A program made the position numbers and the translations under genes. DNA of 64,000 nt from Planctomycetaceae bacterium (GTDB lineage Bacteria > Planctomycetota > Planctomycetia > Pirellulales > Pirellulaceae), in the NCBI GenBank assembly GCA_002724245.1, contig PBOG01000064.1, positions 16,126 to 80,125 of the forward strand, read 5' to 3'. The notes under the pieces are model-generated. The model had not been told where the DNA came from, did not search any database, and was given only the letters and a program-made list of their open reading frames with translations. Shown here piece after piece: positions 55,618-57,689 of the stretch. The stretch's first letter is position 1. Each line of letters starts with the position of its first letter.

Positions 55618-55800
55618 AACAAGATCCTTCTGTATTGAGTTCCAGTGCTTGAGCTATGTCAGGATGCCGCCCAACTTCCGCGTCAAATCACTGGACGGCC
55701 GCTGCCAGGTAAACCGGGTACGCGAGCCTAAAGCATAACCGACCCGCAGCGGAAAAACACGTCTTCGGATTGCGCCACCCAAATACCTGGCGTGGCTCCG

Positions 55801-55848
55801 CAGCGTTTCGCCTCGGCAGCGTTTCGCCTCGGCAGCGTTTCGCCTCGA
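55801..55848. repeat. Three tandem copies of a 16-bp unit (cagcgtttcgcctcgg)
   Basis: cagcgtttcgcctcgg at 55801-55816, 55817-55832 and 55833-55848 (last base a); direct reading. Confidence 0.95.
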
Positions 55849-55973
55849 TGGTACAACGACTCTCCAGTAAACCACGGCCCGCGATTGGACACCCAGCAGA
55901 CGAGATGATAGGGTGCCATTGTTGTCAAATACGAGTCGTCGCACCCCTACCTGCGACCCTGGGAGATCGAACC

Positions 55974-56573
55974 ATGCGAAAATTGATGCTTACTTGTGTG
56001 TTGGGACTGATTCTGTCAGCCGGCGGATACGACGCCAATGCGGCAGATTTGAAAGTTGGCGATCCCGCGCCCGAATTCACGCTTAAAGGAAGCGATGGGA
56101 AAACCTACAAGCTCTCGTCGTTCAAAGGCAAACAGGCCGTTGTACTCGCCTGGTTTCCCAAAGCATTTACCGGTGGCTGAACGCGTCAGTGCAGTTCGCT
56201 GCGTGTCAGCGAAGTCAAAGAGGCTTTCAGTATCGAGTTGCTTGGTGGACGCAAACTGGAAATCGCTGCTGCCAAAGGCTCAGGACTCGACAAATTTGAT
56301 GTAAGTTTCTTCACCGCCAGCTGTGATACCGTAAAAACCAATCCCCGGTACGCCAAGGAGCTCAAGCTGGACTATCCGATCTTGAGCGACCCTAAAAAGA
56401 ACGTCGCCAAGTCATACGGCGTGGTTCATGACAAACGCACGGTTCCAGAACGCTGGACTTTCTACGTCGGCAAGGACGGAACGATTAAACACATTGAAAA
56501 GAAAGTCAATGCCGGTAAGCACGCCGACCAAATCGTTACCACGTTGAAGAAACTCGGGGTTTCCCAGCGTTAG
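55974..56573 (+). CDS. Putative selenocysteine-containing peroxiredoxin (BCP/AhpC-TSA-like), UGA at 56178-56180 read as Sec
   Basis: [68 protein letters not shown][U][130 protein letters not shown]; same frame before and after TGA; TGA is at the peroxidatic Cys position. Confidence 0.88.
56195..56213 (+). promoter_or_regulatory. Candidate bacterial SECIS hairpin
   Basis: TTCGCTG (56195-56201) - CGTGT loop (56202-56206) - CAGCGAA (56207-56213), perfect 7-bp stem starting 14 nt after the UGA; G at loop position 2; UGA-to-loop distance 21 nt. Confidence 0.65.
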
Positions 56574-56723: not shown

Positions 56724-57689
56724 ATGAACCCAATACGGTCACTCGTATCCTGGTCACTGACAACAAGTATCACGCTGGTGGCCTTGTCGCCCAATCTCGC
56801 CTCCGCGGCGGGTGAGGGTTGGCTGGTCGACTTCGCAGAAGCCAAAGAACTGGCCGCCAAGGAAAACAAGGATATCCTGATTGAATTCACAGGATCCGAC
56901 TGGTGTCCACCGTGCAAGGCCTTGCAGAAAAATGTCCTCAGCCAGGATATTTTCAAGCGGGAAGCGCCCAAACAGTTCATCCTGCTGTTCCTCGACAACC
57001 CACGCGACAAATCGCATCAAAGTGAAGAGGAAAAGGCTCAGTACAAGCGACTTGCCGAAGCGTTTCAGGTCACGGGAGTTCCCACCGTTTTTCTGGTCGA
57101 CGCAGAGGGACGGGCTTACGCCCGGCAGGTGGGCTACAACGGTGAAAAAGCCCCTCAATACGTTGCCAACCTGTCTGAAAAAACCAAAGCTCGTGAGACA
57201 AGAGATCAATTCCTTGCCAAAGCCGAACAAGCACAGGGCGTTGCCAGGGCGCAGTTTCTCCACCAGGCGATGCAACAGATCGACACTTCACTGGTTTTGA
57301 CAACCTACAAGCAGATCGTGCAGGAAATTGTCGAGCTGGACGAAAACAATCAAGCTGGATTAAAGAACCAGTATGCTGCCAAAATTGAGCTGGAACGCAT
57401 CAAGACTTCCTCACGAATCGCCGGCCCTGATGCAACTCTCAGAAGTGTCGACAAGCTGTTGGTAGAAATGAAGCCAGAGGGTCGTGATCTCCAGGAAGCA
57501 CTGTTTCTCAAGGCTCAGATAATCTACCGCCAGGATCGGGAAGGCTGCAAACAGGCGCTCATCACCGCCCACAAGGCAGCGCCAGATTCGGACACCGCCA
57601 AGAACATCTCACGGATCTTAATGCAAGTGTTCAAGACGGCGATCGAATCCAAACCCGAACCGCCAGAGAACGACGCCCCCCAACCTTAG
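56724..57689 (+). CDS. Thioredoxin-fold protein with signal peptide and C-terminal helical extension
   Basis: ILIEFTGSDWCPPCKALQKNVLSQDIF (WCPPC); VTGVPTVFLVDAEG cis-Pro region; signal MNPIRSLVSWSLTTSITLVALSPNLASAA. Confidence 0.92.
   Translation: MNPIRSLVSWSLTTSITLVALSPNLASAAGEGWLVDFAEAKELAAKENKDILIEFTGSDWCPPCKALQKNVLSQDIFKREAPKQFILLFLDNPRDKSHQSEEEKAQYKRLAEAFQVTGVPTVFLVDAEGRAYARQVGYNGEKAPQYVANLSEKTKARETRDQFLAKAEQAQGVARAQFLHQAMQQIDTSLVLTTYKQIVQEIVELDENNQAGLKNQYAAKIELERIKTSSRIAGPDATLRSVDKLLVEMKPEGRDLQEALFLKAQIIYRQDREGCKQALITAHKAAPDSDTAKNISRILMQVFKTAIESKPEPPENDAPQP

Follow-up and report, generated by a model that had tools for sequence, protein, structure and literature searches.

An in-frame TGA very probably encodes selenocysteine in a predicted exported peroxiredoxin of a planctomycete

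Does the TGA at positions 56178-56180 of the window (the whole 64,000-nucleotide stretch analysed here) terminate a peroxiredoxin gene, or does it encode a residue within one? The two open reading frames listed for this region, 55770-56180 and 56238-56573 (the latter from a TTG start), share one frame, and translating 55974-56573 on the + strand with TGA as selenocysteine (Sec, U) yields a 199-residue protein with no other internal stop. The region is thus a single 199-codon gene, with its lone in-frame TGA at residue 69 and a terminal TAG at 56571-56573, confirming the proposal of a preliminary description that the two fragments belong together. A likely ribosome binding site (GGGAG, 55961-55965) lies 8 nt 5' of the ATG, and residues 1-23 (55974-56042, ending in DANA before AD) form a predicted signal peptide; the peptide was recognized by eye, in a part of the structural model that has low confidence, and the N-termini of homologues are hydrophobic too. 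A gene caller unaware of Sec would report a truncated protein and a fragment here, and would do likewise for the TGA-bearing relatives described below.

To place the codon in its family, we scanned 84,980 species genomes, which yielded 396 relatives, and kept the best 80; these came from Planctomycetota, Verrucomicrobiota and Acidobacteriota, and nearly all were metagenome-assembled. Among these best 80, the codon aligned with 56178-56180 was TGA in 53 and TGC or TGT in 27, with no other codon found, so the Cys and Sec homologues that the preliminary description had called for are both present. Two independent assemblies from the same genus retain the TGA (92% and 84% protein identity), which argues against both chance and a local sequencing error. 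Comparison of the window with these two same-genus members gave dN/dS values of ~0.02-0.04 3' of the TGA (0.0168/0.886 and 0.079/2.01) compared with ~0.14-0.15 5' of it, indicating that the part of the gene beyond the TGA is both translated and under selection. The residue three positions after U69 (56187-56189) is Gln in 32 of 54 Sec forms and in 2 of 27 Cys forms, in which Glu prevails; this split may reflect shared ancestry.

These comparisons bear directly on the possibility that the gene is a pseudogene or an assembly error, with the TGA being a true premature stop or a miscalled TGC or TGT. TGA does serve as an ordinary stop elsewhere in the family, as 11 of the 80 relatives end their peroxiredoxin gene with it. 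Set against this are the recurrence of the same internal TGA in so many independent relatives, including the two of the same genus, the strong purifying selection 3' of it and a hairpin, described next, that is conserved only alongside TGA. For practical purposes the comparative data refute this reading, and the probability left to it is negligible.

Bacterial selenocysteine insertion sequence (SECIS) elements are stem-loops just 3' of the UGA with a small apical loop that contains a guanosine (PMC1088965), and the putative hairpin at 56195-56213 (UUCGCUG-CGUGU-CAGCGAA, loop G at 56203) agrees with this description. Sec forms have in common a 7-bp stem that starts 14 nt 3' of the TGA and a CGUGN loop, with 22 nt separating the UGA from the loop G. 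Across 47 distinct Sec sequences, 94.5% of stem cells were paired, 55 cells were doubly changed and double changes occurred in 5 of the 7 pairs. The covariation score was 0.466, compared with 0.205 for shuffled alignments (0 of 500 as good) and at most 0.105 when the register was slid. The Cys forms are an internal control for this signal: in the same register, 26 distinct Cys sequences had 55.5% of stem cells paired and a score at background (0.151 versus 0.147 shuffled). The loop Arg codon (+8) was also frozen as CGT in 52 of 54 Sec forms compared with 6 of 27 Cys forms (Fisher p 4e-12, which overstates the strength of the bias because related sequences are not independent). Folding of the window's RNA as a single sequence was indecisive, with an alternative pairing preferred in a wider 42-nt segment (z -0.84), and the SECIS assignment is therefore based on covariation and comparison. 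No family matched in an Rfam scan of the window, a scan whose reach does not extend to short SECIS elements of this type. By inspection, 6 of the 7 stem pairs are kept in two Cys genes, L038 and L053, that are nested close to Sec genes, which suggests that their stems may be relics of a recent change from Sec to Cys.

The decoding machinery is present in the same genome (7.79 Mb, 98.8% complete). We found selB at C55:9999 with selA next at C55:12088, a tRNA-Sec with anticodon TCA on C139, and selD on C89 (L097:1501-2487, minus strand), the active site of which (ASCAGUAGKL) itself requires a Sec TGA; the check for all four genes proposed in the preliminary description thus had a positive outcome. 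Use of Sec by planctomycetes has been reported previously (PMC4807772). In the same family, 23 of 149 genomes have the peroxiredoxin with one TGA (counted anywhere inside the match), and selA scored over the cut-off in 20 of these 23 compared with 65 of the 126 others (p 0.0013). The three exceptions are all draft genomes: G118 has selB and tRNA-Sec, G002 has tRNA-Sec only, and in G102 selA, selB and tRNA-Sec were all undetected; the latter two genomes count against the Sec reading.

An open frame by itself needs only read-through, and the TGA could in principle be decoded as another residue, either through a variant code (as Trp or Gly) or through near-cognate suppression. Nothing specific favours this. 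Cys is the sole sense codon found at the position among relatives, TGA serves as a stop within the same gene family, and both the Sec machinery and the SECIS covariation are in place; we therefore rejected a variant code, and give non-Sec read-through of any kind a very small probability, although not quite as small as that of a pseudogene. Because of the alternation of TGA with Cys codons, covariation confined to Sec forms, the machinery and purifying selection downstream, we conclude that 56178-56180 very probably encodes Sec. The early suggestion of Sec thus gained support from homologues and machinery, and from the Sec-only hairpin besides. Taken as a whole, the reading of the gene as an exported, Sec-containing peroxiredoxin with UGA decoded as Sec is one that we hold with very high confidence.

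The same genome contains other selenoprotein candidates. In another peroxiredoxin, a BCP-type protein (L003:219-707, on C22), an in-frame TGA takes the peroxidatic position (DDTPG-U-TREAC) and a stable hairpin lies directly 3' of it; this protein too is very likely a selenoprotein. At L002:1621-1623 (on C144), a TGA occupies the SFT-U-GPF position of a deiodinase-like protein (Pfam T4_deiodinase, E=7e-33), which is a likely selenoprotein belonging to the deiodinase-like family of bacteria.

Translation, Pfam, relatives and AlphaFold2 all point to a peroxiredoxin. The protein matches AhpC-TSA (PF00578, E=3.8e-27), and stretches on either side of the TGA are assigned to AhpC-TSA and Redoxin. An AlphaFold2 model based on 48 sequences, drawn from the window and from its loci, had a pLDDT of 92.7, and its top Foldseek matches were Bcp1 (3drn, E=4e-14) and AhpE. 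Invariant among the 48 aligned members are P62, T66 and U/C69 of the active-site motif P62-xxx-T66-xx-U69 (PKAFTGGU, 56157-56180), together with C73 (56190-56192) and R160 (56451-56453), the latter a candidate for the peroxiredoxin active-site Arg. In the model, U69, at the peroxidatic position, is predicted to start helix 67-75, with C73 one turn further along. A resolving role for the Cys four residues after Sec had been suggested early on, and the invariance of C73 in 48 of 48 members would fit such a role. The BCP-type xTPGCTxxxC motif named early on needs a minor correction for this protein: the motif reads TGGU rather than TPGU, and the Cys lies at +4 rather than at the +5 of the BCP paralogue in this genome.

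No NCBIfam equivalog covers this subfamily: the window protein scored 38.9 bits against the 270-bit cut-off of PrxU (NF040737) and 75.6 bits against the 140-bit cut-off of BCP (PRK09437). A text search by motif returned no paper describing the subfamily, although it covered only the open-access literature and is thus weak evidence of absence. The enzyme type is already known, and the branch to which the window protein belongs appears to be unnamed. That no named model reaches its cut-off leaves room for a Sec protein that uses the peroxiredoxin fold mainly as a thiol-disulfide oxidoreductase or a sensor, as do the predicted export of the family, a hairpin insert and a third cysteine, C117 (56322-56324), which ends beta-strand 110-116 and is mostly conserved, with V, T or R in some members. 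Yet the PxxxTxxU motif and the invariant Arg are retained, the motif differs from the UxxC of peroxiredoxin-like oxidoreductases (PMC13188914, PMC1088965), and the closest folds, Bcp1 and AhpE, are those of peroxidases. We therefore regard a mainly non-peroxidase function as unlikely, if less remote than the alternatives considered for the TGA itself.

For the inferred peroxidase, a working scheme can be outlined. The hairpin at 56195-56213 would recruit SelB loaded with Sec-tRNA(UCA) to decode the UGA, a step strongly supported by the comparative data, and the predicted signal peptide would direct export. In keeping with peroxiredoxin chemistry, Sec69, at the N-terminal end of helix 2, would attack a hydroperoxide and become a selenenic acid; condensation with Cys73 of that helix would then form a selenenylsulfide, and an extracytoplasmic thioredoxin-like protein would reduce the latter. 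The downstream gene (56724-57689) encodes a thioredoxin-domain protein (WCPPC) with a signal-like N-terminus, a possible electron donor. A dedicated donor is not supported, however: in a search for a conserved operon partner, this thioredoxin-like gene adjoined the peroxiredoxin only in the two same-genus loci.

On a maximum-likelihood tree with 81 sequences, 13 changes between Sec and Cys are required, 6 of which are forced by the well-supported branches alone. An insert of ~22 residues beside the active site (56214-56279, boundaries approximate), predicted to form a beta-hairpin (strands 85-88 and 94-97), is restricted to one Pirellulaceae-rich clade of 27 sequences in this tree. The new details are this insert in a single clade and the ~13 exchanges, at least 6 of them forced. 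The exchanges provide a clean natural experiment, in which one gene carries Sec or Cys and the SECIS hairpin is maintained only with Sec, and planctomycetes gain a well-supported selenoenzyme that is predicted to be exported. More tentatively, and with the odds against it, these proteins may constitute an exported selenoperoxiredoxin subfamily, as yet unnamed, that is shared by Planctomycetota, Verrucomicrobiota and Acidobacteriota. In its Pirellulaceae-rich clade, the insert directly follows the segment that encodes the SECIS and would shape the binding of partners or substrates near the selenium. If so, extracytoplasmic peroxides would be dealt with by selenium chemistry.

Sec-containing peroxiredoxins with a TxxU motif are an established bacterial selenoprotein family (PF00578, TxxU/PxxxTxxU), exemplified by the Eubacterium acidaminophilum enzyme (PMC13188914, PMC2398784, PMC1088965), which bears out the earlier statement that Sec at a peroxidatic position is a known bacterial theme. 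The window protein shares with them the fold family, the peroxidatic Sec, PxxxTxxU and a SECIS element directly 3', but differs in its TGGU, its +4 Cys, its predicted signal peptide, its 22-residue beta-hairpin insert, its score below the PrxU cut-off and the hosts of its subfamily, which are Planctomycetota and neighbours. Its best fold and PDB sequence matches are BCP/PrxQ proteins (E. coli Bcp type, Sulfolobus Bcp1 3drn and M. tuberculosis AhpE 1xxu), from which it is set apart by 24-29% identity to the top matches, by Sec in place of Cys and by a score below the PRK09437 cut-off. The BCP paralogue in its own genome (U-TREAC) has its Cys at +5, whereas that of the window protein lies one residue nearer, at +4. 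Peroxiredoxin-like thiol:disulfide oxidoreductase selenoproteins (PMC13188914) have the PF00578 fold and an active-site Sec in common with it, but carry UxxC, whereas the window protein combines TxxU with UxxxC.
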